Shown here: in pieces, positions 44,117-58,779 of the stretch
Numbering within the stretch: position 1 is the first letter of the stretch
Layout of the letters: each line of letters starts with the position of its first letter
From: Salinibacter altiplanensis
GTDB taxonomy: Bacteria; Bacteroidota; Rhodothermia; Rhodothermales; Salinibacteraceae
Direction of reading: 5' to 3'
DNA: 64,000 bases
NCBI RefSeq assembly: GCF_002894645.1
Contig: NZ_NCQY01000025.1
Location: 1 to 64,000 of the forward strand
Notes under the pieces: model-generated
The model's database searches: none
What the model was told of the DNA's origin: nothing
Seen by the model: only the letters and a program-made list of their open reading frames with translations
Made by a program: the position numbers and the translations under genes

Positions 44117-44157
44117 CTTGGTTGGCCGCGGATCCCATTCGTTTCTCTGCCATTCGC

Positions 44158-44412
44158 ATGACAGATCTCATTACTAATTTCATAAATACAGGGGTGGCAG
44201 CCGTGGCTCACGACATCGAATCACTGTGTAAGGCCTGTACGCATCTTGACCGCGATCGTGACGAGGAGGCGATCTGCGAGGCGTTTCCGGAGGGCATCCC
44301 GGAGGAAATCTGGCGAAACCAGCACGACCACCACGATCCGTACCCGGGGGACCAGGAGATACGCTTCGAGGCCATGCCGGTCCCCGAAGAACAGGCGGAA
44401 GTCGTCGCCTAG
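44158..44412 (+). CDS. Small Cys/His-containing protein, operator-linked, unknown function
   Basis: 84 aa from ATG 44158 (MTDLITNFINTG). CKACTHLDRD has a C-x-x-C, then EEAICEAFPEGIPEEIW and NQHDHHDPYPGDQEIRFEAMP; the phrase C-x-A-F-P-x-G-I-P and D-H-x-x-P-x-x-G-D-x-x-I-R-F is shared by a widespread family of small proteins of unknown role, probably metal-binding. The longer frame from TTG 44122 lacks this character at its start. It has its own operator and a strong terminator. Confidence 0.75.
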   Translation: MTDLITNFINTGVAAVAHDIESLCKACTHLDRDRDEEAICEAFPEGIPEEIWRNQHDHHDPYPGDQEIRFEAMPVPEEQAEVVA

Positions 44413-44437
44413 GGTGGCCCCCATTTGATCTGTGTCG

Positions 44438-44475
44438 GGCCGATCCGCCATCCGGCGGGTCGGCCTTTCTTTTTT
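44438..44475 (+). terminator. Strong rho-independent terminator
   Basis: GGCCGATCCGCC (44438-44449), loop ATCC, GGCGGGTCGGCC (44454-44465) pair over twelve bases with one T-G pair, followed by TTTCTTTTTT. Confidence 0.9.
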
Positions 44476-44638
44476 GATGGTGCTTCTCGGTATCGAGCCT
44501 CCCACTCGTTCGTCGGCGCAACGCACGGCCCAACGAGGGCAGACGCGGCTCGTCGAGGGTCCCCAAACGCAAGCCCCGGGCGCCGAATAGGTGAGGATCC
44601 CATCGCGGATGACCTGATCCTCAACCGCCAGTCTCACC

Positions 44639-46855
44639 ATGTGTCTCCGGTTCATTGGGGGACTCGCCGTCGTGCTTGCGCTCATTCCTGCCGTAGCCTC
44701 GGCGCAGCCCACGGTCGTGAAAGGCCGGGTACAGGACGCGCAGGACGCCGTCGGTGTGCCCTACGCCAACGTGCAGCTCAAAGGAACGACCATCGGCACC
44801 GCCGCCGGGGAGGACGGCCGCTTCCGCCTCGACACGAAACGCACCGGATCGGTTGTCCTACGGGTTTCGGCCGTCGGCTACGATCCCGTGGAGCGCTCTC
44901 TCCACCTCCAGGCCGGAGACACGACCACCGTCCGCCTCATCCTCCGGGCCGAAAGCGTTGAGCTTGACGGGGCCGTCGTGACCGGCGAGGCCTTCTCGAC
45001 CGGATCGCCCGCGGAGTCCACCTTGGGCTCGACCGAAGCGGTGACGACGCCGGGCGCCGCCGGGGATCTTTTCCGCGCACTGCAGTCGCTCCCGGGCGTG
45101 GCCGCGCCGGGAGACGGCGCCGGCCTCTTTGTACGTGGCGGCGACGTGTCCGAGACCAAAACGCTCCTCGATCAGGCAACGGTTCATCGTCCGTACCGCT
45201 ACGAGTCCCCAGCGGGTGGGTCGTTCGGCGCCGTGCGCCCCTTCCTCGTCGACGGCACCACACTTGCCACGGGCGGCTTCTCAGCCCAGTACGGCAACGC
45301 GCTCTCCGGCGTCCTCGCGATGGAGTCGAAGGATCGCCCCCAGGAATCCAGCCGGTATGTGAACCTCGGCCTTGCCGCCGCGTCCGTCTCCCTCGACCAG
45401 CCGCTCGTGGAAGACAAGTTCGGCCTCCGGCTCTCCGGCAACCGCTCGTTTACCGGCCTCCTCTTCCGCGTCAACGGCCAGCGCAGGGACTACGCCACCG
45501 TGCCGCAGGGCCTGGACGGCAGCCTGGGCCTGACCTGGGACTACGGCCCCGCCGGACAGCTCAAGCTCTTCGTCTTCGCCCGCCACAACCGCATCGGCGT
45601 GGAGACGACGGAGGGCACGTACTCCGGTGTCTACCGTGGCGAGACGACAAACCAGCTTTACAACCTGCAGTGGACGACCCGGGCACGCGGGTGGACCGTG
45701 GAGTCGAGCGCCTCCTGGAACGCACACACGTCGACGACGACGCTCGGCGCACTCGACCTGTCGCCTACCGACCAGGCCGCCAAGCTCCGCGTCGACGCCA
45801 CGCGCAGGGCCGACGACTGGACGCTCCGCACCGGCGGCACCCTTGAGCGGCGGCGGTACCGGTTCGACGGCACGGTTCCGACGCAGCCGGACGTAGTGGC
45901 CCCTGGCGCCGCCACGCGTTCGATTGACGAATTGGTTCCGGCCACGCGGGCCGGTGGGTACGCCGAGATCGAGGCCAACGTTCTTTCGTCGCTCGTCGCC
46001 CGGGCCGGGCTCCGCACCGACCTCCACGGCCGCGCGGGCCGGCCGGTCGTCGATCCACGGGTGAGTCTCTCCTGGCGGATCGCGCCGCACACCCAGCTGC
46101 GGGCCGCCTGGGGCCTCTACCACCAGTTCCCAGAGCTCAGCACCTACAGCGAGCACGCCGGCGAAAACACACTCGGCGCCCAGCGCGCGCAGCACGTGGT
46201 GGTGGGCCTGCGCCATGAGCAGGAGAACCTGCTCCTGCGGGCCGAGGCCTACCACAAGCCGTACCGCGACCTGGTCGTCCGCACCGGGCCGTCCCGCTAC
46301 GCAACCGACGGCACGGGCGTCGCGCGGGGCGTCGACCTCTTCGCCAAGTACGGATCGTTCCTGGGGACCCGCTTCAACGGCTGGGCCTCGTACAGCCTGC
46401 TTCGCTCCCATCGCACCCAGCCCCGGGATCAAGGAACGGAGGAGCTGACGCTTGAAAGTGGACCGGCCCCCTTCGACCTCACGCATCAGGCAACGGTGGT
46501 GGGCAAGGTCCGCGTCGTCGATCAGATCCGGATCGGCGGCACGTACCGCTACACGACCGGGCAGCCCTTCACGCCTGTCGTGGAGACCAATCGATCGCCC
46601 ACCGGCGCCCTCCTGCCGGTAGACGGGCCGGTGGGCAGCGAGCGCCTTCCGGCCTACCACCGCCTCGACCTGCAGGTGAGCTACTTCTGGCCCTTCAACC
46701 GCCAGCAGAACGTGGTCGTCTACGCGGCGCTCAACAACGTGCTCGACCGGGCCAACGCCGTCGACGTGACCTACACCCCGGACTACGCTGAACGCCGCTA
46801 CCGCACCACCAACTTCCGACGATCGGTCTATTTCGGCCTTACCCTCACCCTCTGA
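44639..46855 (+). CDS. TonB-dependent receptor with carboxypeptidase-like plug extension
   Basis: 738 aa. Signal peptide at residues 1-22 (FIGGLAVVLALIPAVASA). Residues 25-110 are a CarboxypepD_reg domain (VKGRVQDAQDAVGVPYANVQ, KGTTIGTAAGEDGRFRLDTK). The plug follows (DLFRALQSLPGVAAPGDG, GLFVRGGDVSETKTLLDQ), then a barrel of about 22 strands ending YRTTNFRRSVYFGLTLTL. It takes up a large or scarce solute, energised by TonB. There is no SusD partner. It opens a plus-strand cassette with a TPR lipoprotein, an ABC exporter and a LytS/LytTR system. Confidence 0.92.
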   Translation: MCLRFIGGLAVVLALIPAVASAQPTVVKGRVQDAQDAVGVPYANVQLKGTTIGTAAGEDGRFRLDTKRTGSVVLRVSAVGYDPVERSLHLQAGDTTTVRLILRAESVELDGAVVTGEAFSTGSPAESTLGSTEAVTTPGAAGDLFRALQSLPGVAAPGDGAGLFVRGGDVSETKTLLDQATVHRPYRYESPAGGSFGAVRPFLVDGTTLATGGFSAQYGNALSGVLAMESKDRPQESSRYVNLGLAAASVSLDQPLVEDKFGLRLSGNRSFTGLLFRVNGQRRDYATVPQGLDGSLGLTWDYGPAGQLKLFVFARHNRIGVETTEGTYSGVYRGETTNQLYNLQWTTRARGWTVESSASWNAHTSTTTLGALDLSPTDQAAKLRVDATRRADDWTLRTGGTLERRRYRFDGTVPTQPDVVAPGAATRSIDELVPATRAGGYAEIEANVLSSLVARAGLRTDLHGRAGRPVVDPRVSLSWRIAPHTQLRAAWGLYHQFPELSTYSEHAGENTLGAQRAQHVVVGLRHEQENLLLRAEAYHKPYRDLVVRTGPSRYATDGTGVARGVDLFAKYGSFLGTRFNGWASYSLLRSHRTQPRDQGTEELTLESGPAPFDLTHQATVVGKVRVVDQIRIGGTYRYTTGQPFTPVVETNRSPTGALLPVDGPVGSERLPAYHRLDLQVSYFWPFNRQQNVVVYAALNNVLDRANAVDVTYTPDYAERRYRTTNFRRSVYFGLTLTL

Positions 46856-46893
46856 ACGGTCTTCGGTCTGCTCGCGGCGACCACAAAAACCCA

Positions 46894-46928
46894 CTCATGA
46901 CTCATCCCCTCATAACTCATTTGCTCAT
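46894..46928. repeat. Five CTCAT repeats at 7-8 bp spacing
   Basis: CTCAT begins at 46894, 46901, 46909, 46916 and 46924. The array lies in the spacer before the TPR lipoprotein gene. A related set is found before the ABC ATPase gene. Confidence 0.75.
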
Positions 46929-46983
46929 GCCCCACGCCACACAAACCCACAACGCAAAACCCTCAACTCAAATCTCAATTTCT

Positions 46984-47823
46984 ATGCTCAAACCCCCGAC
47001 CCTCTTTCGAAAAACCCCACTCGTCCTCACCGTGTGCCTGCTGCTAATTGGTCTCGTCGCGTGCGGGACCAGCACGCCGATGGCGTCCGCCTCCGCCGGT
47101 GGAGCCCGCCTCACGACGGCAACGACTGATTCGCTCCTCCGACAGGCCAAGAGCCTCATCCGCGAGGCCACCGACAAAGGGTCCATCGACTCCTTGAAAC
47201 AGGCGCGTGCCGTCGCCGAACGGGCAACAGACGACAGCGAGAACAGGGCACTCGCGCACTACTACATCGGCCTTGCCGACTTCCGAATGATCAACCAAAT
47301 CCCCGAGGACGACGAGGACCGGCGCGAGCCGGTAATCGAAGACGCCATTGGTCACCTCAAGCGCGCGACGGAAATCGATGCGACGATGGCCGACGCGTGG
47401 GCCCTGCTCTCGGGCTGCTACGGCCAAATGATGGGGATGACCCCGATGCAGGGCATGTCTCTCGGCCCGAAATCCAGCGAGGCCATGAACGAGGCGAAGG
47501 AGCGTGGCCCCGACAATCCGCGCGTATGGATCGTCGATGGCACGTCGGATTTCTACACACCCAGTATGTTTGGCGGCGACAAAGAGCAGGCCCTGAAGAA
47601 GTTCAAGAAAGCCGCCCGCCTCGCCGAGCAGGAGTCCACCGACGACCCGCTGATGCCCAGCTGGGGGCACGCCGAGGCCTACGCCTGGATCGGCATTGTC
47701 CACATGGACGCCGAGCGGTACGATCAGGCTCGCAGCGCCTTTGAGAGGGCCCTCGACCTCAATCCCGATTACGGCTGGGTAAAGCAGATTCTCTTGCCGA
47801 AGGCCAAAGAGAAGCAGAGCTGA
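46984..47823 (+). CDS. TPR-containing lipoprotein
   Basis: 279 aa from ATG 46984 (MLKPPTLFRKTPLVLTVCLL). The lipobox is GLVAC; the earlier in-frame ATG 46897 would place 29 residues before the signal and is less likely. After a helical first part come TPR-like units (ARAVAERATDDSENRALAHY, EDAIGHLKRATEIDATMADA, and DQARSAFERALDLNPDYGWV). It should be a periplasm-facing scaffold. It is second in the cassette, with CTCAT arrays in the spacers on both sides. Confidence 0.8.
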   Translation: MLKPPTLFRKTPLVLTVCLLLIGLVACGTSTPMASASAGGARLTTATTDSLLRQAKSLIREATDKGSIDSLKQARAVAERATDDSENRALAHYYIGLADFRMINQIPEDDEDRREPVIEDAIGHLKRATEIDATMADAWALLSGCYGQMMGMTPMQGMSLGPKSSEAMNEAKERGPDNPRVWIVDGTSDFYTPSMFGGDKEQALKKFKKAARLAEQESTDDPLMPSWGHAEAYAWIGIVHMDAERYDQARSAFERALDLNPDYGWVKQILLPKAKEKQS

Positions 47824-47862
47824 CAGCCCGCCTCTACGACCACAGATGCGCAGCAGAACGTC

Positions 47863-47890
47863 CTCATCAGTCATTCACTCATTGACTCAT
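47863..47890. repeat. Four (C/G)TCAT repeats at 7-8 bp spacing
   Basis: CTCAT at 47863, GTCAT at 47870, CTCAT at 47878 and 47886. It lies between the TPR lipoprotein and the ABC ATPase gene. Confidence 0.65.
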
Positions 47891-47979
47891 GACCCGCCTA
47901 CTCGTGCCTGCACACTCGTGACCCGGCTCCCTGGGGAGATCCCGATCCCATCCGTTTCTGCCAATCCGCCCCCCGACCC

Positions 47980-48921
47980 ATGTCGTCTGCCCTTTCCTTC
48001 CAGTCCCTCCGCAAAACGTACGGCGCAACGGTCGCCGTCGACGATCTGTCCCTGACGGTCGAAGAAGGGGAAATCTTCGGCCTCATCGGCCCGAACGGCG
48101 CGGGCAAAACCACGGCCGTCGAGTGCGCGCTAGGCCTTCGACAGCCGGACGCGGGCACCGTGCGCGTGCTCGGCATGGATCCACAGGAGGCATCGTCCCA
48201 GGCGTTCTACCAACGAGTGGGGACTCAGCTCCAGGAGTCGGCCCTCCCCGACCGGATCACCGTCCGCGAGACCATCAACCTGTTCGCGTCTTTCTATCCC
48301 TCGACTGCGGACTCGGAGGCCCTCCTCGACCGATGGGGCCTCGCCGACAAACAACACGCCTCGTTCGCCTCATTGTCGGGTGGACAGAAGCAGCGCCTGT
48401 TTGTCGTCCTCGCGCTCGTGCACGACCCAGACCTTGTCGTCCTCGATGAAATCTCGACGGGGCTCGACCCCGACGCCCGTCATCAGGTTCGAAATCGTCT
48501 CCGCGAGGTGCGGGCCAACGGGACGACCGTTGTACTGGTGACCCACTTCATGGACGAGGCGCAGGCCCTCTGCGACCGGGTGGCCCTGATGAATCAGGGG
48601 CGCTGCGTGGCACTCGATGCGCCCTCGGCCCTCATCGATGAGCTCGACGCTTCGTATCGTGTCTGGTTCGACGCTCCGTCCGATTTCGACCTCGATCCCC
48701 TGCGTACGGCGGACGACATACAGAGCGTGGAGCTCGTGGACGGCCACGTGCAGGCCCGGGGCGGGGATGACCTCCTAACGGCCGTCGTGCACCGTCTCGC
48801 CGACGCGAACGTCTCCCCAAACGACCTGCACGCCGAGCGCGCCACCCTGGAAGACGTTTTCCTGACCCTCACTGACGACTCGCAGCTTCCCACATCCTCT
48901 TCCCCCGACCTTCGGGACTAG
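47980..48921 (+). CDS. ABC-2 type transporter ATP-binding protein
   Basis: 313 aa. LRKTYGATVAVDDLSLTVEE, Walker A GPNGAGKTTAVECALG at about residues 39-54, signature SLSGGQKQRLFVVLALVHDP, Walker B LVVLDEISTGLDP and the switch His in VLVTHFMDEAQALCD. The C-terminal 90 residues are the extra domain seen in drug-export (DrrA/NatA-like) ATPases. The permease gene follows after 53 bases. Confidence 0.94.
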   Translation: MSSALSFQSLRKTYGATVAVDDLSLTVEEGEIFGLIGPNGAGKTTAVECALGLRQPDAGTVRVLGMDPQEASSQAFYQRVGTQLQESALPDRITVRETINLFASFYPSTADSEALLDRWGLADKQHASFASLSGGQKQRLFVVLALVHDPDLVVLDEISTGLDPDARHQVRNRLREVRANGTTVVLVTHFMDEAQALCDRVALMNQGRCVALDAPSALIDELDASYRVWFDAPSDFDLDPLRTADDIQSVELVDGHVQARGGDDLLTAVVHRLADANVSPNDLHAERATLEDVFLTLTDDSQLPTSSSPDLRD

Positions 48922-48974
48922 CGGCTCCCATCCCCCCGTATTCTCCGTCTCGTCCAACCGATCCGTCCAAGCCG

Positions 48975-49709
48975 ATGAAGGCCTTCCTCACGCTCACCTG
49001 GACCGAATCGAAGCTCTTCCTGCGGGAACCGGCCGCGACCTTCTTTACGCTGGGCTTTCCCCTTCTGCTTCTCTTCGCCTTTGGGACCATCTTCGGCAAC
49101 GGCCCGGCCTCCGCCCCCGGCAACGTCGGCTATACCACGCGCGCCCTTCCCGGCTACGTGGCCCTCACGATTGGGGCCCTCAGCTTGTTGAGCCTGCCCA
49201 TCACGCTGGCGACGCAGCGCGACCAGGGCATTCTGCGACGGTTCCGCGTCACGCCCCTCCGCCCCACGACGGTGCTGGGCACGCAAGCGGCCGTGAACCT
49301 CTTCATGTTGGTCGTGAGCACCGTTCTTCTTCTCGTCGCGGCACTCACGTACGACGTGCCCCTGCCCTCTTCCGTCCTGCTAGCGACCGGTGCACTGCTG
49401 TTCACCGGAACCGCCTTCTTGAGCCTCGGCTTCCTGCTCGGGGCCCTGATGCCCACGGCCCGCGCGGCGCAGTCCGTTGGGATGGCCCTCTTCTTTCCCA
49501 TGCTGTTCCTCTCGGGGGCGGCGATCCCGCAGTTTCTCTTCCCCGACTGGCTGACAACCGCGAGCCTCGCCCTGCCCCTCACCCACGTCACCCGCCTCCT
49601 GCAGGACGCCTGGCTGCACGGCCAGTGGAACGGAACGGCCGCGCTCGTGCTTGCAGGAACGGGCCTTACAAGTACCGTCGTGGCGGCGTGGGCCTTCCAG
49701 TGGTCGTAG
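48975..49709 (+). CDS. ABC-2 type transporter permease
   Basis: 244 aa with six membrane helices, among them FFTLGFPLLLLFAFGTIFG, VALTIGALSLLSLPITLAT, TVLLLVAALTYDVPLPS and FLSLGFLLGALMPTARAAQSV; the last, near the C-terminus, is ALVLAGTGLTSTVVAAWAF. RDQGILRRFRVTPLRP is the coupling region known from ABC-2 permeases. It pairs with the ATPase upstream and probably exports a drug, lipid or peptide. Confidence 0.92.
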   Translation: MKAFLTLTWTESKLFLREPAATFFTLGFPLLLLFAFGTIFGNGPASAPGNVGYTTRALPGYVALTIGALSLLSLPITLATQRDQGILRRFRVTPLRPTTVLGTQAAVNLFMLVVSTVLLLVAALTYDVPLPSSVLLATGALLFTGTAFLSLGFLLGALMPTARAAQSVGMALFFPMLFLSGAAIPQFLFPDWLTTASLALPLTHVTRLLQDAWLHGQWNGTAALVLAGTGLTSTVVAAWAFQWS

Positions 49710-49752
49710 TGCATCTCGACGAAACGATTCCTTCCCAACACACCGAGCAGAC

Positions 49753-50889
49753 ATGTCGTCGGTGCCCTCCTCAACCGACCTCGATGCCTCCCCGGAGGAC
49801 ATCGTCCCCCAAGCTCCACCCAAGCCACGCATCACCTGGACGGGGATCGGACTGGCCGCGGCGGGCTGGACGCTCTATGCGTTCCTCTATGCGTTTTTCA
49901 TCGCCCGGCAGGAGCCCAACGCCCCCTTCGTTGGTCTTCTTGCCGGGCAGCTTACGTTCGTCCTCGTGCTCGGCCTCTACAGCGTACCGGTCTGGTGGAT
50001 CACGGTGCGCGAGATGGATCGCACGCACTGGGGGGGGACACTCGGCGTGCACCTGATCCTCGGTCCTCTCTACGCCTGGGGCGGCCTCGAGTCGTACCTG
50101 TTTGTTGTTCGGGCCGTGTTTGCCCCCAGCATCGCGGCGGAGATTGAGGCCCAGTACCAATGGATCCTGTTCGCCAACCTTACGGTCTACGCCATCCAGT
50201 TTGCCCTCTACCACCTGGTCCGCAACGTCCAGCGCCTCCGGCAGAAGGAGCGGCAGGCCACCGAGCTTTTGGCCATGGCCCGCGAGCAACAGTTCGCCGC
50301 CCTCAAGGCCCAGGTCAATCCGCACTTCTTGTTCAACACCCTGAACTCAATCAGCGCAACGCTCCGCCGGGATCCGGAACAGGCCCGAGAAATGATCGCG
50401 AGGCTCTCCGACATGATGCGGTACGCCCTTGAGGGCCCGGACCGCGAAGTCGTTCCGCTGCGGGACGAGATCGACTTCACCCGCCGGTACCTCGACCTGG
50501 AACGGCACCGCTTTTCGGATCGGCTGGAGGCCCAGGTGAACGTGAACGCCGACGAGGACGCGCTGGGCACGCCGGTGCCGCCGATGGTGCTGCAGCCCCT
50601 CGTGGAAAATGCGCTCCGCCACGGCATTGCCCCAAGCGAGGACGGCGGCTCCGTGACGGTCGAGGTGACTGCCGAGAACGACGAACTCGACGTGCACGTG
50701 GAGGACACCGGCGTGGGCCCCAACGCCGACGACCCGCTTTCGGGCTCGACGGAGGGCACCGGCCTCGCCACCACGAGCACGCGCCTGGAACGCACCTACG
50801 GCCCCGACGCTGCCCTCCACACCGCCGAAAACAATCCCACCGGCTTTAAAGTCTGGTTCTCCATCCCCAAAGACGGCACCGACGCCTGA
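49753..50889 (+). CDS. LytS/YehU-type sensor histidine kinase
   Basis: 378 aa from ATG 49753 (MSSVPSSTDLDASPED). Four membrane helices in residues 30-165, then a coiled linker (VQRLRQKERQATELLAMARE) and the His_kinase domain: LKAQVNPHFLFNTLNSISAT carries the phosphorylated His, and an HATPase with LQPLVENALRHGIAPSEDGG, EDTGVGPN and GTGLATTSTRLERTYG. It starts 43 bases after the permease and is followed by its regulator. Confidence 0.93.
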   Translation: MSSVPSSTDLDASPEDIVPQAPPKPRITWTGIGLAAAGWTLYAFLYAFFIARQEPNAPFVGLLAGQLTFVLVLGLYSVPVWWITVREMDRTHWGGTLGVHLILGPLYAWGGLESYLFVVRAVFAPSIAAEIEAQYQWILFANLTVYAIQFALYHLVRNVQRLRQKERQATELLAMAREQQFAALKAQVNPHFLFNTLNSISATLRRDPEQAREMIARLSDMMRYALEGPDREVVPLRDEIDFTRRYLDLERHRFSDRLEAQVNVNADEDALGTPVPPMVLQPLVENALRHGIAPSEDGGSVTVEVTAENDELDVHVEDTGVGPNADDPLSGSTEGTGLATTSTRLERTYGPDAALHTAENNPTGFKVWFSIPKDGTDA

Positions 50890-50939
50890 CGGCCTCTCTG
50901 CACTGCCCCTTCCCTCTTTCCAACCTTCATTCCCTACCT

Positions 50940-51686
50940 GTGCAAGCCCTCATCGTCGACGACGAGCCGCCCGCCCGCACCCTGATCCAGGAATACCTGG
51001 AGGACGTGGACCGCATCGAGGCGATTGGCGAGTGCGGAAACGGACGCGAGGCCATAGAGGCCATCAACGAGACGGCCCCCGATCTCGTCTTCCTCGACGT
51101 GCAGATGCCCGGCCTCGACGGCTTCGACGTGCTGGAGCGGATCGACACACTGCCGGACATCATCTTCTCCACCGCCTACGACGAGTACGCAATTGCGGCC
51201 TTCGAGGCGGGAGCGGTCGACTATCTCTTGAAGCCGTACACCAGGGCCCGCTTCCAGACCGCCGTGGAGCGGGCGCTGGAGCGCCACGATCGGGGCGACG
51301 ACGCGTATGCCGACCAGTTGGCGGCGCTGCTGCAGGAGGCCAGGACCGACGCCGAGGAATCGCCCGAACGGCTGTACGTGCGCCACGGCGACAAAATCAT
51401 CCCCGTCGACCCCGACAATATTCGGTGGATCGAAGCGGCGGGCGACTACTCGAAGCTCCACACCGACGAGGCGACCTACCTGTCGTCGATGGGCATCGGC
51501 GAGTTGGACGACCGCCTTGCCTCGGCGCAGTTCATGCGGGTCCATCGCTCTCACATTCTCGCCTTCCCGGCCATCGACCACCTCTACAGCGACGGCTCGG
51601 GCGGGTACAAGGCCGTGCTCGACGACGGCACCACCGTCCGCGTGAGCCGCTCCTACGCCTCCGCGATCCGCGACCGGCTCGTGTAA
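50940..51686 (+). CDS. LytTR family response regulator
   Basis: 248 aa from GTG 50940 (VQALIVDDEPPARTLIQEYL). Receiver domain at residues 1-118 with the phosphorylated Asp in LVFLDVQMPGLDGFD; LytTR DNA-binding domain at 145-245 with LYVRHGDKIIPVDPDNIRWI, AGDYSKLHTDEATYLSSMG and FMRVHRSHILAFPAI. It should work with the LytS-type kinase just upstream and probably controls the cassette or another export target. Confidence 0.94.
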   Translation: MQALIVDDEPPARTLIQEYLEDVDRIEAIGECGNGREAIEAINETAPDLVFLDVQMPGLDGFDVLERIDTLPDIIFSTAYDEYAIAAFEAGAVDYLLKPYTRARFQTAVERALERHDRGDDAYADQLAALLQEARTDAEESPERLYVRHGDKIIPVDPDNIRWIEAAGDYSKLHTDEATYLSSMGIGELDDRLASAQFMRVHRSHILAFPAIDHLYSDGSGGYKAVLDDGTTVRVSRSYASAIRDRLV

Positions 51687-51700
51687 GCCACAGAGTCGGT

Positions 51701-52195
51701 CTACGCCGAGGCCTCTTCGGCCTCCGTCATGTCTTTGACGAACGGCGTTAGGCGCACGTCCGGCACTTCGCTCAGCGTCGTCTGCTGAAAGGTCGTCTTC
51801 ATACGGTCACGCTCCTCGGTCCAGTGCTCGTGGAGGGGACACGGCTCGGCCTCCCCACAGCCCGGCAGGCCCAGCACGCACTCCTCAAACAGGTCGGCCC
51901 CGTCGATCGCGACGACAATCTCGTAGAGGCCAATGGCCTCCGGAGCACGAGTCAGCGCAACCCCGCCGCCCGGTCCCCGCTTCGACGTCAGAAGTCCCGC
52001 GTCGTTGAGCTGTTGAAATACCTTTGTCAGAAACGAGAAGCCAATCTCCAGGTCGTCGCTAACGGTTTGAATCGAAACATACTCACGGGTGGGGGCGGAG
52101 CCGTCGTCTTCCCCTTCCGACCCCTCATCATTCTCGAGGGTCCCCAAGTACAGCATTGCGCGCAGTCCGTACTCGCAGCTTTTTGAAAGCAGCAT
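51701..52195 (-). CDS. Rrf2 family transcription regulator with three Cys (IscR/NsrR type)
   Basis: 164 aa from ATG 52195 (MLLSKSCEYGLRAMLYLG). Winged helix with SIQTVSDDLEIGFSFLTKVF and LLTSKRGPGGGVALTRAPE. Three Cys, C106, C113 and C119 (ECVLGLPGCGEAEPCPLHEHW region), are placed as the Fe-S ligands of IscR/NsrR. An acidic insert (DEGSEGEDDG) in the first helix pair is unusual. It is the last gene of the scdA-hemN-NPD run and may be its autoregulator, sensing NO or Fe-S state. Confidence 0.9.
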   Translation of the reverse strand: MLLSKSCEYGLRAMLYLGTLENDEGSEGEDDGSAPTREYVSIQTVSDDLEIGFSFLTKVFQQLNDAGLLTSKRGPGGGVALTRAPEAIGLYEIVVAIDGADLFEECVLGLPGCGEAEPCPLHEHWTEERDRMKTTFQQTTLSEVPDVRLTPFVKDMTEAEEASA

Positions 52196-52311
52196 CTGGG
52201 GGTTGGGGACGTGAACGGAATGCGGTGGGGGGATGGCAGAGCGTCTGCACGACGTGGTGTGCACCGGTCCATTCTGCCAGCGTTCCCCACTCGCCCCTCG
52301 GGTCCGCCGCC

Positions 52312-53805
52312 TCAATCTGCCGATTGTGGCTGACGGGACGAGCTGGACACGTGGGGATCCCGGACGCCCCGATACAAATAGTCAAGCACGTCGTCCGCGT
52401 CGTACTGCGGATCCTCCGCCGAGCCGAGCGGCAGGTCTTCGAGCGCGTCCCCCCCGGTAAAGAGGAACGGCTCGGTGCGGTCTCCTCGCTGCTGCCCACA
52501 CCCAATGTTGGCCATCAGCGCGTTGCAGAGGCAGGCCCGCCCCTCTGTCTCGTCCCGGTCGCCCCCGCGACTGACGTAGGTCTTGACGGGCTCCGCCGGA
52601 CATCGGCCCATCAGGCGCCCCTCCTCGTCGAGGTACGGCTCGCGCAGGTAGCCGAGGTCGCAGACACGAGCGCGCCGGTCGTACACCTCCGCGTCGGCCA
52701 GCGTGCCGTCGACGGTGAGCACCTTGAACGGGAAGCCCGTGGATGAGACGCGCCCCTCGGTGCTGACCTCAATCTCTCCGTTGTGCAGCCCCCGAATGAG
52801 GCGACGTGTGGTGCTGGGCGGGTAGCCCGACTCCTTCGCCAGGGAGAAGAGCGACCCCACCTGGATGCCGGCGGCCCCGGCCTCGTGGGCGGCCCGAAGG
52901 CCCTCGGGCGAGCCGTGCCCCCCCGCCAGGTAGAACGGCTTGCCAAGGGCCCGAATGGCCTCCAGGTCCGCCTCGTCGCGCTCATCGTACAGCGGCGTGC
53001 CATCGGCCGCGTAGTTTTTGTTGCGGGGCGGGGCATTGTGCCCCCCTGCAACGGGGCCCTCCACCACCCAGCCGTCCACGTGCTCGTCCGGCAGCTTGGC
53101 GTCCATAATGCGGGCCAGCGCGTCCGACGAGACGATGGGCAAAAACAATGGCCGGTCGAGGGCGGGCGGCGCATCGAGCACATCGGCCGGGTCGAACCGG
53201 TACGCGTAGGAGTCGTCAGGGTCCGGGGCCTGACTGGTGTCCACGTCCAGCCGCAGGGCGGCCGGCTCACCCGCCGCCAGCTTCGGAATCTGGCGGGCCT
53301 CCTCCAGCGGAATGCCGGCCCCGATGGAGACAATGTCGATGTCGGCCAGCAGTGCGCCGTAGATGCAGGGCAGCGTGTAGCGCTTCAGCTTCGCCAGCAG
53401 ATTCATCCCGATCGTTCCCTCGTGGCCCTTTTTCGCGAGCCGCACCTCCGTGTAAGTGGCCGCCGCGAGGATGCGCTGCGACCGGACCGACGGCTCGAAC
53501 GGATGCATGTTCAACAGGTCGTAGGGCTCGTCCGCCGGCATCCCGTCCGGCCGGTAGAACCGATCGACCAGGTGGCCGGCGATCCCTTTGTCGGGGTAGT
53601 CGGCAAGCACGGTGCACCGGTCGTGGGGGTCGCCCTCCTGGAGCTCACGCACGACCACGCTGTCGATGCCGGTCCCGGACACAATGCCAATTTCGCCGCG
53701 CTGAGCCACACGACGGGCCAGGGACCAACTCGACACCCCGATGCCCATGCCGCCCTGAATAATGTTGGGCGCAGTGGACGGGGCAGGTGAGGAAGGAAGG
53801 GCCAT
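52312..53805 (-). CDS. Nitronate monooxygenase (NPD)-like flavoprotein
   Basis: 497 aa, longer than simple nitronate monooxygenases (~330-360). The TIM-barrel marks are present: IIQGGMGIGVSSWSLARRVA at the N-terminus, VDGWVVEGPVAGGHNAPPRN and PFYLAGGHGSPEGLRAAHEA, and GAAGIQVGSLFSLAKESG. The C-terminal ~120 residues contain several Cys (RVCDLGYLREPYLDE, GRCPAEP, EGRACLCNALMANIGCGQ). They may form a metal site, which is not usual in the family. It lies between hemN and the Rrf2 gene, on the same strand. Substrate unknown. Confidence 0.85.
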   Translation of the reverse strand: MALPSSPAPSTAPNIIQGGMGIGVSSWSLARRVAQRGEIGIVSGTGIDSVVVRELQEGDPHDRCTVLADYPDKGIAGHLVDRFYRPDGMPADEPYDLLNMHPFEPSVRSQRILAAATYTEVRLAKKGHEGTIGMNLLAKLKRYTLPCIYGALLADIDIVSIGAGIPLEEARQIPKLAAGEPAALRLDVDTSQAPDPDDSYAYRFDPADVLDAPPALDRPLFLPIVSSDALARIMDAKLPDEHVDGWVVEGPVAGGHNAPPRNKNYAADGTPLYDERDEADLEAIRALGKPFYLAGGHGSPEGLRAAHEAGAAGIQVGSLFSLAKESGYPPSTTRRLIRGLHNGEIEVSTEGRVSSTGFPFKVLTVDGTLADAEVYDRRARVCDLGYLREPYLDEEGRLMGRCPAEPVKTYVSRGGDRDETEGRACLCNALMANIGCGQQRGDRTEPFLFTGGDALEDLPLGSAEDPQYDADDVLDYLYRGVRDPHVSSSSRQPQSAD

Positions 53806-53853: not shown

Positions 53854-55236
53854 TCAAACGCTCTCGGAATAGGCCGGCTGCGCGTCGGGGGAGGCGTTGT
53901 GCAGATGCCCATCGAAGGCCGCGGCCACGTTCCGGACCAGCAGACGCCCCGGCGGGCGCACAGCGATGGCCTCCGGATCCACCACAACGAGCCCGTCCTG
54001 CGCCATTGGCCGCAGGCGGTCGAGGGCGTCGCTGAAGTGCGCGTCAAAGTCGACGTTAAACCGCGCCTCAACCGCCGCCTTCTGCACCTCGGCGTTGCAC
54101 ATGAGCTCCATGATGACGTGGCGCCGCAGCCGATCCTCCTGGGTCGGTCGATATCCCCGGTAGACGGGTAGTCTGTCCTGGTCGATCTGGTCGTAGTACG
54201 TGCGCAGGGTCTTCGTATTCTGGGCGTAGAGCCCCGAGAGCTGATGAATGCCGGAAAGGCCGAAGGCGTAGACGTCGGCCCCCGCGCGGGTCGAATAGCC
54301 CTGAAAATTCCGACGGAGCGTGCCGTTCTGCTGCGCACAGGCCAGCTCGTCGTCCGGCTTCGCGAAGTGGTCCAGTCCAATGAACTGGTAGCTGGCCTCC
54401 GCGGTAAGGGTCTCCAAGGCCCGTTTAAAGAGCCGAAGCCGCATTTCTGGCGCTGGCAGCGCCTCCTCCGAGATGAGGCGCTGGTGCGCCAGGACGGACG
54501 GGACGTGGGCGTAGCTGTAGAGCGCAATCCGGGCCGGGTCGAGATCGACGACCCCATCAAGCGTCGCCCCCATCGTTTCGAGAGTCTGGTGGGGCAGGCC
54601 GTAGACGAGGTCGAGGTTGATGCTGTCGATGCCGTGGCCCCGCGCCCACCGCACGGCGGTTCGCGTAAGCCGCTCCGGCTGCACCCGATTGATGGCCTCC
54701 TGCACTGTGCGGTCGAACGACTGCACCCCGAGGCTCAGGCGATTCACTCCGATCTCGCGGGCCGCGGCGATGTGGCTTTCTGTGAGCCCACGGGGATCGG
54801 CCTCGATGCTGATCTCGGCGTCGGGCGCCACCCGGAAGCGATCGCGAAGGTGCCCCCCCAGCTTCCGAATCTGCTCCGGAGAAAGCAGGGTGGGCGTGCC
54901 GCCGCCCCAGTGCACCTGGGTCACCGGCCGGTCCGACGACAGCAGGGGGACCAGCAGGTCAATCTCGCGCTTCAGGTAGCGAAGGTACTTCGCGATCCGC
55001 GCCGGGTCGTGCGTCACCTTCATGTGACAGCCGCAGTAGTAGCAGAGCTGCCGGCAGAAGGGCAGGTGCAGGTACAGCGAAAGCGGCGCTTCGGGCGACG
55101 AGGCATTCTCGCGAACGACCTCTGCCTGGAAGGCCTCGCGCCCCACTGCCTCCTCGAAGTGGGGGGCGGTCGGGTAGCTCGTGTAGCGGGGAAGCGACTG
55201 GTTGTACTGGCGAAGGAGATCGAGGTCAACATCCAT
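53854..55236 (-). CDS. hemN: Oxygen-independent coproporphyrinogen III oxidase
   Basis: 460 aa, the length of true HemN (RYTSYPTAPHF near residue 20). Radical SAM Cys motif at C61, C65, C68 followed by another Cys (LPFCRQLCYYCGC), then VTQVHWGGGTPTLLSPEQIR, ISIEADPRGLTESHI, RLSLGVQSFDRTVQEAINRV, INLDLVYGLPHQTLETMGAT and YRGYRPTQEDRLRRHVIM. It makes protoporphyrinogen IX without oxygen. It starts 48 bases downstream of the scdA stop, so the two are co-transcribed. Confidence 0.95.
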   Translation of the reverse strand: MDVDLDLLRQYNQSLPRYTSYPTAPHFEEAVGREAFQAEVVRENASSPEAPLSLYLHLPFCRQLCYYCGCHMKVTHDPARIAKYLRYLKREIDLLVPLLSSDRPVTQVHWGGGTPTLLSPEQIRKLGGHLRDRFRVAPDAEISIEADPRGLTESHIAAAREIGVNRLSLGVQSFDRTVQEAINRVQPERLTRTAVRWARGHGIDSINLDLVYGLPHQTLETMGATLDGVVDLDPARIALYSYAHVPSVLAHQRLISEEALPAPEMRLRLFKRALETLTAEASYQFIGLDHFAKPDDELACAQQNGTLRRNFQGYSTRAGADVYAFGLSGIHQLSGLYAQNTKTLRTYYDQIDQDRLPVYRGYRPTQEDRLRRHVIMELMCNAEVQKAAVEARFNVDFDAHFSDALDRLRPMAQDGLVVVDPEAIAVRPPGRLLVRNVAAAFDGHLHNASPDAQPAYSESV

Positions 55237-55284
55237 GTCAGGGCTTGGCGGTCTGCGAGGGCGGGGCGGATACGCCGCGGGCAG

Positions 55285-55989
55285 CTAGAGGAGCGATTCG
55301 GCACGAGGGAAGAGGATGTAGAGCTCCTCATGGAGGTGACGACGCAGGTCCATCTCCAATTCATGGAGTCGACCCATCACGTCTCGAAGAACTTGGCCCG
55401 CCTCGTCCGGCGCCTGGTACCCATTCGTCAGCGCCCGGAGACGCTCCAGCTTCGTCTTCGTGTCATCGTGCTGATCTGTGATGCGGCAAAGTGTGTCCTG
55501 GCTCGGCGTCGACCCGTCGGGCAGCACGCGCCCTGCGGCCACGGTCCGGATGGCGGGAAACACGTATTCCTCCTCCCGCCGGAGGCCCTCCAGCAGGGTC
55601 GACTTCAACGTCTGGAAGGCCTCACGGACCTGCCCGACCCACCGCGAGGTCTCCGCGTCCGAATTCCGACTCGCCCTCTCCAGGCGTTTTGTGAGACGGG
55701 GCAGGGCGCGCCGCAGATAGTCGTGATGAGTGGACTGGATGTGGTCGATCAGGACCGGCAGGGATACAGACAGCCACTCAGGACTGTCCTCGGGAGGCAC
55801 GGTCTCGACCGCCACGTCGAGCATCCGGGCGACCGTCTCGGGGTCGAGTCCATTCGCTTCGCAGGCCTCCGCGAGGGAGCACTCCCCCTCCCGGCGACAG
55901 TCAATGCCGAGTCGGTCGAGAATGCGAGCACGAGTGGGCCGTTCGTCTATGAGGTCGACGAGAGGCGTGTCGGGGGAGAGAGCAGGCAT
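55285..55989 (-). CDS. Iron-sulfur cluster repair di-iron protein (RIC/ScdA/YtfE family)
   Basis: 234 aa from ATG 55989 (MPALSPDTPLVDLIDERP). DUF542 head with Cys (GIDCRREGECSLAEAC, C31, C37, C43), then a hemerythrin-like domain with His/Glu of the di-iron site: PVLIDHIQSTHHDYLRRALP, GLRREEEYVFPAIRTV, ITDQHDDTKTKLERLRAL and LRRHLHEELYILFPRAE. These proteins repair NO/oxidant-damaged Fe-S clusters. First gene of the four-gene minus run and divergent from crtI. Confidence 0.92.
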   Translation of the reverse strand: MPALSPDTPLVDLIDERPTRARILDRLGIDCRREGECSLAEACEANGLDPETVARMLDVAVETVPPEDSPEWLSVSLPVLIDHIQSTHHDYLRRALPRLTKRLERASRNSDAETSRWVGQVREAFQTLKSTLLEGLRREEEYVFPAIRTVAAGRVLPDGSTPSQDTLCRITDQHDDTKTKLERLRALTNGYQAPDEAGQVLRDVMGRLHELEMDLRRHLHEELYILFPRAESLL

Positions 55990-56217
55990 GGGCCAAAAAA
56001 GACTGATGAAGAGAATCACGTGCGAGACTCAGACGCAATACCGGCCGGAGCGGCCCCCGGCACTACAGTACCAAGGGTAATGGAGGAGCCCGGCGGTCCC
56101 CAGCGCAGAACGTTACTTAAGAGAAAAGAACATGTTTTTATCTGAAATAGAGGATCCTCCTTCTTCACAGAGGAATATGGATAGTGCTACGCTGACACAC
56201 CCAGTGCCTCATCCTCC

Positions 56218-57693
56218 ATGACAGTTCCGGACTCCGTATCCATCGTAGGCGGCGGCATCGGCGGACTCTCGGCAGCTTGTCACCTCGCCGACGCCGGGGC
56301 CGACGTTACCCTGCTCGAGCAGCACGATAGCCTCGGCGGGGTGGCCGGCTCGTTCGACTCCGATGGGTTTCGCTTCGACTCGGGGCCGTCGTGGTACCTG
56401 ATGCCGGAGGTGTTCGAGCACTTTTTTGAGTCGTTCGGGTCGTCCGTCGACGCGGCGTATGAGCTGAAGCGCCTCGACCCGAGCTACCGCGTCTTCTGGA
56501 AGGACGGCGACCGGCTCGATGTCCCCGCCGACCCGGAGGCCCTCGCGCCAAAGCTCGAGGCGTACGAGGACGGGGCGGCCGATGCCTTCCATCGGTACCT
56601 CGACCACGCAGAGGCCGTCTATGAGCTTGCGATGGACCGATTCGTCTATCCCCGCCGGGCCCGGCCGCGAGATTGGATCGACGGAGATGTACTGCGCGCG
56701 GCGTGGGCCTTGCCGTTGCTCCAACCGATGGACCGCCATGTGCGGAGCTACGTGGAGCACCCGAAGCTGCGCCAGCTACTGGAGTACAAGCTGGTCTTTC
56801 TCGGGGGCTCGCCCTACAACACGCCCGCCCTCTACACGCTCATGAGTCACGTCGACTTCAACCAGGGGGTCTTTCACCCGGTGGGCGGCATGCAGGTGCT
56901 CGTCGACGCTCTTGCGGGCCTGGCCGACCGCCTCGGCGTCACCCTCGAACTCAACGCCCCCGTGTCGGAGATTCGGCCAAACGGTTCGTCCGTGCAGGTG
57001 CGCACGAACGGGGACACGTGGAGGGCCGACTGCGTCGTGGCCAACGCCAGCCCAGCCCACGTGGAGCAGTCGCTCCTGCCCCCCGAGCAACGCGACCACG
57101 GCGACGCGTACTGGGAGGAGCGCACCTACGGCCCGTCCGCCTACATGCTCTACCTCGGCGTGGAGGGGGACGTCGGCCCGCTGCGCCACCACTCGCTCGT
57201 GCTTCCCGTGGACTGGGACGCGCACTTCGCGACGATCTTTGGCACCCCCGGATGGCCTGCCGATCCGGCCTATTACGTCCACGTCCCTTCCAAGACCGAT
57301 CCCTCGTACGCCCCCGACGGCCACCACTCGGTCGTCATCCTGGTGCCCATTGCCCCGGGCCTGAACGACGGCCCGGCCCGCCGTGCCTGGCTGCGCGAGC
57401 GCGTACTGGACGATCTGGCCGAGCACGCAGTTGACCTTCGAGGGCGCATTGAGGTGGAACACGAGGCCTGCGTCTCGGACTTCGCCAACTACTTCAACCA
57501 GCCGCAGGGCAACGCCCTGGGCCTGGCCCACACGCTGTGGCAAACCGGCCCGCTGCGTCCCGCCCACCGGGCGGACACGGCATCGGGACTCTACTACACC
57601 GGTGCGGACACGCAGCCGGGCGTCGGACTGCCGATGTGTCTGATTAGTGGCAAACAGACCGCTCAGGCCGTCGCTGCCGACACCGCCGCGTAG
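56218..57693 (+). CDS. crtI: Phytoene desaturase family protein (CrtI-type)
   Basis: 491 aa. FAD-binding start VSIVGGGIGGLSAACHLADA, then FRFDSGPSWYLMPEVFEHFF, and the closing YYTGADTQPGVGLPMCLISG, all typical of CrtI-type carotenoid desaturases/oxidases. Exact desaturation cannot be read, and CrtD is an alternative. It starts a plus-strand series with the retinal-forming blh gene, consistent with carotenoid production for membrane pigment and rhodopsin. Confidence 0.88.
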   Translation: MTVPDSVSIVGGGIGGLSAACHLADAGADVTLLEQHDSLGGVAGSFDSDGFRFDSGPSWYLMPEVFEHFFESFGSSVDAAYELKRLDPSYRVFWKDGDRLDVPADPEALAPKLEAYEDGAADAFHRYLDHAEAVYELAMDRFVYPRRARPRDWIDGDVLRAAWALPLLQPMDRHVRSYVEHPKLRQLLEYKLVFLGGSPYNTPALYTLMSHVDFNQGVFHPVGGMQVLVDALAGLADRLGVTLELNAPVSEIRPNGSSVQVRTNGDTWRADCVVANASPAHVEQSLLPPEQRDHGDAYWEERTYGPSAYMLYLGVEGDVGPLRHHSLVLPVDWDAHFATIFGTPGWPADPAYYVHVPSKTDPSYAPDGHHSVVILVPIAPGLNDGPARRAWLRERVLDDLAEHAVDLRGRIEVEHEACVSDFANYFNQPQGNALGLAHTLWQTGPLRPAHRADTASGLYYTGADTQPGVGLPMCLISGKQTAQAVAADTAA

Positions 57694-57729
57694 CCCTCTC
57701 ACCCGCTTTCTCACGCAGCCTGCTCACCC

Positions 57730-58779
57730 ATGGCTTCTCCTGCTGCTTCGTCGGTCTCTGCTCCCCCACGCCAGGCCCCGGCGCGGTCCCCCACGACGCT
57801 CGCCGTGTGGGGCTCGCGCATCACCCTCGGGGCCCTGGCGGTCGGGGGCATCCTGGCCGCGTTGCTCGACGTGTCACTCTCGATGAAGGCGCAGATGGTG
57901 GGGTACCTCATCGGGATGGTGGCTCTCAACCTGCCCCACGGTGGCTATGAGCACTTCGAGAACCTACGCCACCGCCGCGTCTCCTTCAGCCTGCGGTACG
58001 TCGTGTTGTACGTGGTCTTCCTCGTGGGCTTCGTGGGCTTCTTCTTCGTGGCGCCCGTCGTGGCGCTCGGCCTCGCCTTCTCCACGGCGGTCGTCAAGGG
58101 CGGACACGGCGGGGTGAAGGCGATGGATGCCCTGTGCGGGACCGAGCACCTGCAGTCGTCCTGGCAGCGCGGCCTGGCGGCCTTCGTGCGGGGCGGCGCC
58201 ATCATGCTGGTGCCGCTGCTGGCCTGGCCCGGTGTCTACGTCACGTTCTCCACCCATATGGTGCACATCTTCGGCGCAGCGGGCCCGCTCCCGCTGGCGA
58301 CGCGCCTCTCGGATGTTCAGATGGCAGTGGGAACGGTCTACGGCCTCGCCCTCGCGGCCCATCTCGGCGGGGGGCTGTACACTGGGGGCCTGTCAACGGC
58401 ATGGCTCACGGATTTTGCCGAGACGACACTCCTGGTCGTCTACTTCACGTTCGTCCCCATGATGCTGGCAGTGGGGCTCTACTTCCCGCTCTGGTACACC
58501 CTGCGCCAGACCGCCCGCACCACGGCCGTCGCGTCCGACGACCCGGCGCCGGACCGGCTGTCGCTCCCCCTCACCTGGGCGGCGATGGTCGTGGGGGCAC
58601 TCGTCACGTTCGGGCTTATGGCCGGCTTCTACGTGCTCGTCCCGAATCCCCTGGGCGGCGCCGGACTGCTCGGCGGGGCGGTGGCGTTCTACACCATCTT
58701 CGTCTGTCTCCTGGCGCTGCCCCACATCGTCGTGGGCGAGTGGCTGGACTCGGCACGGGGCATCTGGTACGTGCCGTAG
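57730..58779 (+). CDS. blh: Brp/Blh family beta-carotene 15,15'-dioxygenase-like protein
   Basis: 349 aa with about eight membrane helices. NLPHGGYEHFENLRHRR holds the His motif of the family (usual form PHG-x-x-D-H, here PHGGYEH), GGHGGVKAMDAL, MVHIFGAAG and the last LLALPHIVVGEWLD give further His. The enzyme cleaves beta-carotene into retinal for bacterial rhodopsins. Start ATG 57730 follows crtI by 36 bases. No rhodopsin gene lies in the window. Confidence 0.9.
   Translation: MASPAASSVSAPPRQAPARSPTTLAVWGSRITLGALAVGGILAALLDVSLSMKAQMVGYLIGMVALNLPHGGYEHFENLRHRRVSFSLRYVVLYVVFLVGFVGFFFVAPVVALGLAFSTAVVKGGHGGVKAMDALCGTEHLQSSWQRGLAAFVRGGAIMLVPLLAWPGVYVTFSTHMVHIFGAAGPLPLATRLSDVQMAVGTVYGLALAAHLGGGLYTGGLSTAWLTDFAETTLLVVYFTFVPMMLAVGLYFPLWYTLRQTARTTAVASDDPAPDRLSLPLTWAAMVVGALVTFGLMAGFYVLVPNPLGGAGLLGGAVAFYTIFVCLLALPHIVVGEWLDSARGIWYVP

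Follow-up and report, generated by a model that had tools for sequence, protein, structure and literature searches.

The window analysed here (64,000 nucleotides of Salinibacter altiplanensis, positions 1 to 64,000 of contig NZ_NCQY01000025.1) carries a cassette of six genes, one of which encodes a TPR protein remotely homologous to HusA, the haemophore of Porphyromonas gingivalis. With moderate confidence in the mechanism as a whole, we propose that these genes form an outer-membrane uptake module of the Hus type under LytS/LytTR control, taking up a flat hydrophobic ligand that is perhaps a porphyrin. Computational support for this reading comes from the homology between the TPR protein and HusA, a conserved four-gene unit, the exchange of the regulators for a HusC-type regulator in other loci, and conserved direct repeats.

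Organization of the cassette

The preliminary description of this DNA had reported six plus-strand genes with intergenic gaps of 128, 156, 53, 43 and 50 bases, which is exact (Table 1), and had assigned each part to a known family, which agrees with Pfam scores above the curated cut-offs for all six genes. The cassette is an isolated block because a strong terminator-like hairpin lies on its 5' side and an opposite-strand Rrf2 gene on its 3' side.

Table 1. Features of the cassette and its borders (positions in the window)
Feature	Position	Strand	Description	Basis
Terminator-like hairpin	44437-44466	+	13-pair stem, then T-run; separates the cassette from a small gene at 44122-44412	Consensus match only
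Predicted LytTR operator	44530-44556	+	CCAACGA (44530-44536) and TCGTCGA (44550-44556), repeating every 20 bases; lies 83-109 bases 5' of the receptor start	
TonB-dependent receptor	44639-46855	+	Carboxypeptidase-regulatory-like domain, plug, barrel; HusB position	Pfam PF13715 (CarbopepD_reg_2), PF07715 (Plug)
HusA-like TPR protein	46984-47823	+	279-aa product; lipobox LVAC with Cys27	Pfam TPR, HusA homology
ABC exporter ATPase, DrrA/NodI-like, ABC-2 class	47980-48921	+	Optional part	Pfam PF00005 (ABC_tran)
ABC-2 permease	48975-49709	+	Optional part	Pfam PF01061 (ABC2_membrane), 91 bits
LytS-type histidine kinase	49753-50889	+		Pfam PF06580 (His_kinase), PF02518 (HATPase_c)
LytTR response regulator	50940-51686	+	GTG start	Pfam PF00072 (Response_reg), PF04397 (LytTR)
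Rrf2 regulator gene	51701-52315	-	Next gene after the cassette	

It could be argued that the six genes are adjacent by chance or local synteny and have no common function, since the gaps of 128 and 156 bases could house separate promoters. However, the order receptor-TPR-(X)-LytS-LytTR is found repeatedly in several phyla, amid different surrounding genes and more often than chance allows. Additionally, the gaps in a sister genome (locus L034) are 57, 39, 24, 43 and 42 bases, and this mostly tighter spacing in a close relative favours a single operon, while the LytS and LytTR genes overlap by 4 bases in some relatives. A chance arrangement is therefore very improbable, and for the four core genes it is already contradicted. 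The preliminary description had stated that the absence of a conserved neighbourhood in relatives would count against a common function. When neighbourhoods were compared, receptor, TPR, LytS and LytTR were kept together across phyla, so this objection does not hold for these four. The proposal of one function thus stands for the four genes, and a LytTR-type operator common to such loci precedes the receptor; a fixed combination of all six genes does not stand.

Clusters of CTCAT/GTCAT repeats occupy the two long gaps of the cassette (46889-46930 and 47860-47890). Similar clusters are present in intergenic spaces of loci L105, L108 and L109, and the 13-mer ACTCATGACTCAT of these clusters has one exact occurrence in the genome. 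A defence-system reading of the cassette was discarded, PADLOC having returned generic ATPase and receiver matches only.

Homology of the TPR protein to HusA

A phmmer search of the window TPR protein against all PDB sequences found one specific relative, HusA (6bqs/6crl, E 1e-8); the other matches were designed or generic TPR repeats, aligned mainly on the canonical repeats. A profile built from 31 relatives of the TPR protein matched HusA with an E of 3.4e-23 over positions 44-212, and with HusA as the query the window TPR protein was the sole match in its genome (E 1.6e-9). The AlphaFold2 model of the protein (pLDDT 89.7) had 6bqs as its best structural match both in Foldseek and in VIA-align, the latter giving Z 20.9 and an rmsd of 2.7 Å over 196 of 201 residues. 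The second-ranked match, 2pl2, follows HusA by a small margin (Z 19.7), so the fold alone is indecisive, and it is sequence and fold together that concur on HusA. The window TPR protein belongs to the HusA family and is remotely homologous to HusA itself.

In P. gingivalis, HusA acts as a haemophore whose hydrophobic groove accommodates porphyrins, and mutating L123, V124, W130 and Y164 together abolishes haem binding (PMC6173696). The corresponding residues of the window protein are G, M, G and Y, which means that the set of HusA haem contacts is not present there; only Tyr164 is clearly conserved, as Tyr191 of the window protein, and position 124 stays hydrophobic. Trp130 is retained only near HusA and is missing from the LytTR-linked TPR subfamily, and the window subfamily has a GMxxGPK loop in its place. 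The homology points to porphyrin-like ligands, with a haem pocket that is only partly conserved. The window subfamily is also a longer one, with an additional C-terminal canonical TPR. The lipobox with Cys27 is another difference from HusA and is confined to the genus, so the designation of this protein as a TPR lipoprotein is right for the genus but does not extend to other family members, which carry plain signal peptides.

The receptor and its pairing with the TPR protein

With the TPR protein as the only anchor, searches yielded 85 non-duplicate loci from Rhodothermota, Balneolota, Bacteroidota, Ignavibacteriota, KSB1, Kapaibacteria, Gemmatimonadota and other phyla, and a receptor of the window family adjoins the TPR gene in 59 of them. 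HusA-family proteins were present in 95 of 394 Bacteroidota-group genomes and also in other phyla. The receptor has a mean column identity of 44% across phyla. Distance matrices of receptor and TPR protein gave a Mantel r of 0.91 over 55 loci (reached by none of 2000 permutations), a value that shared descent by itself would also push up. Based on its position beside a HusA homologue, the receptor may be described as HusB-like. The AlphaFold2 model of the receptor (pLDDT 81) matched TonB receptors in general in Foldseek, giving no clue to the ligand.

Two other kinds of system were considered for this pair. SusCD/RagAB systems likewise combine a TonB receptor that has an N-terminal regulatory-like domain with a helical-repeat envelope partner, but membership was rejected because the receptor scored 41.7 bits against TIGR04056 (SusC/RagA; cut-off 368.25) and the partner, which is HusA-like, had no SusD family match. 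TatT (the T component of TRAP transporters) and BstC-type proteins are also TPR envelope binding proteins, with fold matches of Z 16-19. However, the TPR protein scored 16.1 bits against PF16811, below the gathering cut-off of 26.5, so TatT membership was rejected as well, and the window cassette is without TRAP or RND partner genes.

Interchangeable regulators

The hus operon of P. gingivalis encodes, besides HusA (PG_2227), the TonB receptor HusB, the MarR-type regulator HusC and HusD, a protein of unknown function (PMC4222909, PMC10100897). The window resembles this system in having a HusA-homologous TPR-fold binding protein with an adjoining TonB receptor, but its receptor gene comes first, LytS/LytTR takes the place of HusC/HusD, an ABC-2 exporter is added, and the host is no known haem auxotroph. 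In other loci a HusC-like winged helix and a small membrane protein recur beside the TPR-receptor pair, and the husA operon of P. gingivalis with its HusC/HusD matches these HusC-type loci. Among the 85 TPR loci, LytS and/or LytTR were found in 36 and a HusC-like protein in 24, with no locus having both. The 59 receptor-TPR loci gave the same picture (LytS and/or LytTR in 31, a HusC-like winged helix of the HTH_34 family in 20, both in none, neither in 8). This mutual exclusion has a Fisher p of 1e-9, with the limitation that the loci lack independence. At least 4 to 6 switches between the two kinds of regulator are seen on the TPR tree. Receptor and TPR protein are thus the core of the system, and the regulator is a swappable module.

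The window itself encodes a LytS-type His_kinase and a regulator with receiver and LytTR domains, and Pfam detected no domain N-terminal to the kinase domains of LytS. The pair is like LytS/LytTR systems such as YpdAB and BtsSR, and like LytTR regulatory systems (LRS), in its kinase and regulator families, in direct repeats with LytTR spacing and in probable autoregulation. It differs from YpdAB and BtsSR in that its target would be a TonB receptor/TPR operon, with TCRYCGA as the half-site. It is not an LRS, in which there is no kinase and a membrane inhibitor is encoded downstream, as both a kinase and a receiver domain are present and the gene that follows is the opposite-strand Rrf2 gene.

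A predicted LytTR operator upstream of the receptor

LytTR sites in the literature are built of two repeats of 9-11 nt, separated by 11-13 nt (PMC4847170). LytTR-linked loci carry direct repeats of 20-base period ahead of the receptor gene, and in the window a candidate site with two repeats at LytTR spacing is present there (Table 1). It scores 12/14 against TCRYCGA-N13-TCRYCGA, which is a weaker form of the element; in the genus this element recurs at the corresponding position, and better-formed copies are found in other phyla. Sites of at least 12/14 were upstream of the receptor in 8 of the 8 family loci tested compared to 8 of 138 other genes on the same DNA, and outside the family in 7 of 17 LytTR-linked loci compared to 0 of 276 other genes. 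One caveat is the fact that the half-site consensus was defined after viewing Rhodothermota and Balneolota sequences, so this test was not blind; the best independent case is a Delongbacteria locus (L168) with a 13/14 operator. HusC-type loci as a rule have no operator, and of the other window genes tested none was preceded by one. When repeats of any 8-mer were counted per locus, a peak at 20 was seen in 7 of 26 LytTR-linked loci, which is weaker than the pooled count, in which shifted windows and related loci made the number too high. An initial pattern, CYCGNCGA-N12-CYCGTCGA, was also rejected: in 13 genomes of the genus it found two receptor promoters only and missed the window, whose half-site has A for G, and the looser half-site was used afterwards. 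Altogether, the tandem TCRYCGA repeat is predicted from sequence to be the LytTR operator of the receptor operon.

Between this repeat and the receptor start, at 44560-44600, is a genus-conserved block (CAAACGC...CGAATAGGCGAGGA) that is possibly a promoter. At L037 (9152-9418) a 37-residue LytTR-like remnant follows the receptor and TPR genes and a 14/14 operator is retained upstream, as if the regulator had decayed.

The ABC-2 exporter is an accessory

The preliminary description regarded the six genes as a fixed combination, which is not what relatives have. Of 14 readable loci in the window's family, 8 have the ABC-2 pair (G000, G147, G195, G257, G262, G263, G264 and G270), whereas 6 have no such pair between TPR and LytS (G260, G258, G251, G247, G248 and G252). 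In other phyla the exporter slot is taken by CPBP (Rce1-like) proteases, ICMT-like proteins, TMEM175 or a LiaF-like protein, or is empty. The ABC-2 exporter is an accessory and not a constant part of the cassette. The ATPase scored 201.9 bits against NCBIfam drrA, below the cut-off of 312.

This result bears on the idea that the cassette is a membrane-stress or drug-response unit, in which LytS/LytTR and the ABC-2 exporter are the core and the receptor/TPR pair is a passenger. The model for such a core is natKR-natAB of Bacillus. Other membrane proteins (TMEM175, LiaF-like, CPBP) do occupy the exporter slot, and ABC transporter genes beside LytTR regulators have been reported for LytTR regulatory systems (PMC6193735). 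However, it is the exporter that gets lost and the receptor/TPR pair that stays, and the operator precedes the receptor and no other window gene tested, leaving this idea quite unlikely.

At L033 (3925-7750, G195) extra ORFs, apparently a transposase, break the exporter region between the ATPase and LytS genes, and receptor and TPR seem undamaged. In L113, a suspected fusion of permease and kinase proved to be an out-of-frame ORF, the permease being separate.

Proposed mechanism

We infer the ligand class, the direction of hand-over, the stimulus of LytS and the substrate of the exporter as follows. The HusB-like receptor would bring a scarce flat hydrophobic ligand, most likely porphyrin- or haem-like, across the outer membrane with TonB energy. 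By analogy with HusA, the TPR protein, lipid-anchored via Cys27 in the genus, would hold the ligand in its concave groove and either pass it to the receptor or receive it from there. LytS may perceive the ligand or the effect of the ligand on the membrane. Phosphorylated LytTR is predicted from the conserved repeats to bind upstream of the receptor and to turn on the receptor operon including its own genes, which would be autoregulation. The exporter, a lineage-specific accessory, might rid the inner membrane of ligand that is in excess or unwanted, a speculative step.

Ligand clues and the wider HusA family

The preliminary description left the ligand open because no siderophore or bacteriocin gene is adjacent. 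The survey agrees in that haem, iron, siderophore and bacteriocin families were not recurrent neighbours of LytTR-linked loci (25 most frequent families, 79 flanking proteins); what had been missed is the clue given by HusA homology. Downstream of the cassette, window 53854-58779 encodes hemN on the minus strand and a crtI-type desaturase and a Brp/Blh dioxygenase on the plus strand. The hemN gene suggests that the host makes haem, which counts against porphyrin scavenging.

HusA-like TPR proteins were also seen in biosynthetic surroundings. The window's genome encodes a second such protein of 207 aa within a probable carotenoid cluster (L063:8548-11945; G000:C29, about 70.3-73.7 kb) with the order phytoene synthase family gene, probable acyltransferase, TPR, family-2 glycosyltransferase. 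Similar company is found in L064, L066 and L053 (L053 with a CrtI-like gene), and in L176 a phytoene synthase and a CrtI-like gene precede the TPR gene. At L158 (37-9948, Candidatus Stahlbacteria) receptor and TPR lie within a radical SAM/ThiF/YcaO/SagB-like cluster, with a second YcaO downstream plus an M50-like peptidase. An Ignavibacteria locus (L044:9518-15911) has YcaO, a nitroreductase, an ABC-2 pair and, in tandem, two TPR paralogues of the HusA-like kind. The occurrence of these proteins in carotenoid and YcaO/SagB clusters suggests that ligands may differ within the family, and two alternatives to a porphyrin follow from it.

One is that the module imports or senses a natural product of ribosomal peptide origin with thiazole/oxazole modifications, with the exporter serving self-protection and LytTR control resembling peptide signalling. 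The gene company at L158 would fit, as would that at L044, where the ABC-2 pair is 38%/34% identical to that of the window, and the exporter slot is often filled by CPBP proteases. However, RiPP genes are not recurrent in the LytTR-linked loci that were examined, and the two loci are only 2 of 85, L044 is without the receptor, and both are far from the window in the tree. We consider a peptide ligand rather unlikely, and toxin export, which the preliminary description had suggested, is unsupported in the window, the link to peptide products being limited to these two distant loci.

The other alternative, which we also judge unlikely, is an isoprenoid or lipid ligand (carotenoid, sterol-like, quinone) that the system scavenges or redistributes in the envelope. 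It draws on the carotenoid genes near the paralogue at L063 and in L053 and L176, on the fold match of the TPR model to 7t1s, a bacterial sterol transporter TPR protein (Z 19.1), on the ICMT-like and Rce1-like enzymes in the exporter slot of other phyla, and on crtI and blh, which are located 4.5 kb 3' of the cassette. Against it, the TPR proteins of L063-L066 form a separate long-branch clade, three opposite-strand genes lie between the cassette and the crt genes, and we know of no carotenoid-transporting TonB receptors.

In 2018 HusA was described as the only TPR-like fold binding porphyrin, and co-option during Porphyromonas evolution was suggested (PMC6173696). A HusA family beyond Porphyromonas, with a conserved receptor and two swappable regulators, contrasts with that view. 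Tentatively, and as a generalization that we put forward as possible, HusA would be one branch of a widespread family of TPR proteins that carry flat or polyene hydrophobic metabolites (porphyrins, carotenoids, modified peptides) in the envelope. Each would be paired with a dedicated TonB receptor and combined with swappable parts, namely a control module (either HusC/HusD or LytS/LytTR with a tandem operator of 20-base period) and an inner-membrane effector such as an ABC-2 exporter, a CPBP protease or an ICMT-like protein. The spread of the family beyond Porphyromonas, with its receptor and regulators, leads to testable predictions: ligand binding by a HusA-like protein of a non-pathogen, a LytTR operator that can be named, and a defined core of four genes in free-living bacteria.

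Two smaller observations concern these neighbourhoods: one of the two TPR paralogues of L044 is without an obvious signal peptide, and the genes downstream of the cassette differ in size between L034 and the window.
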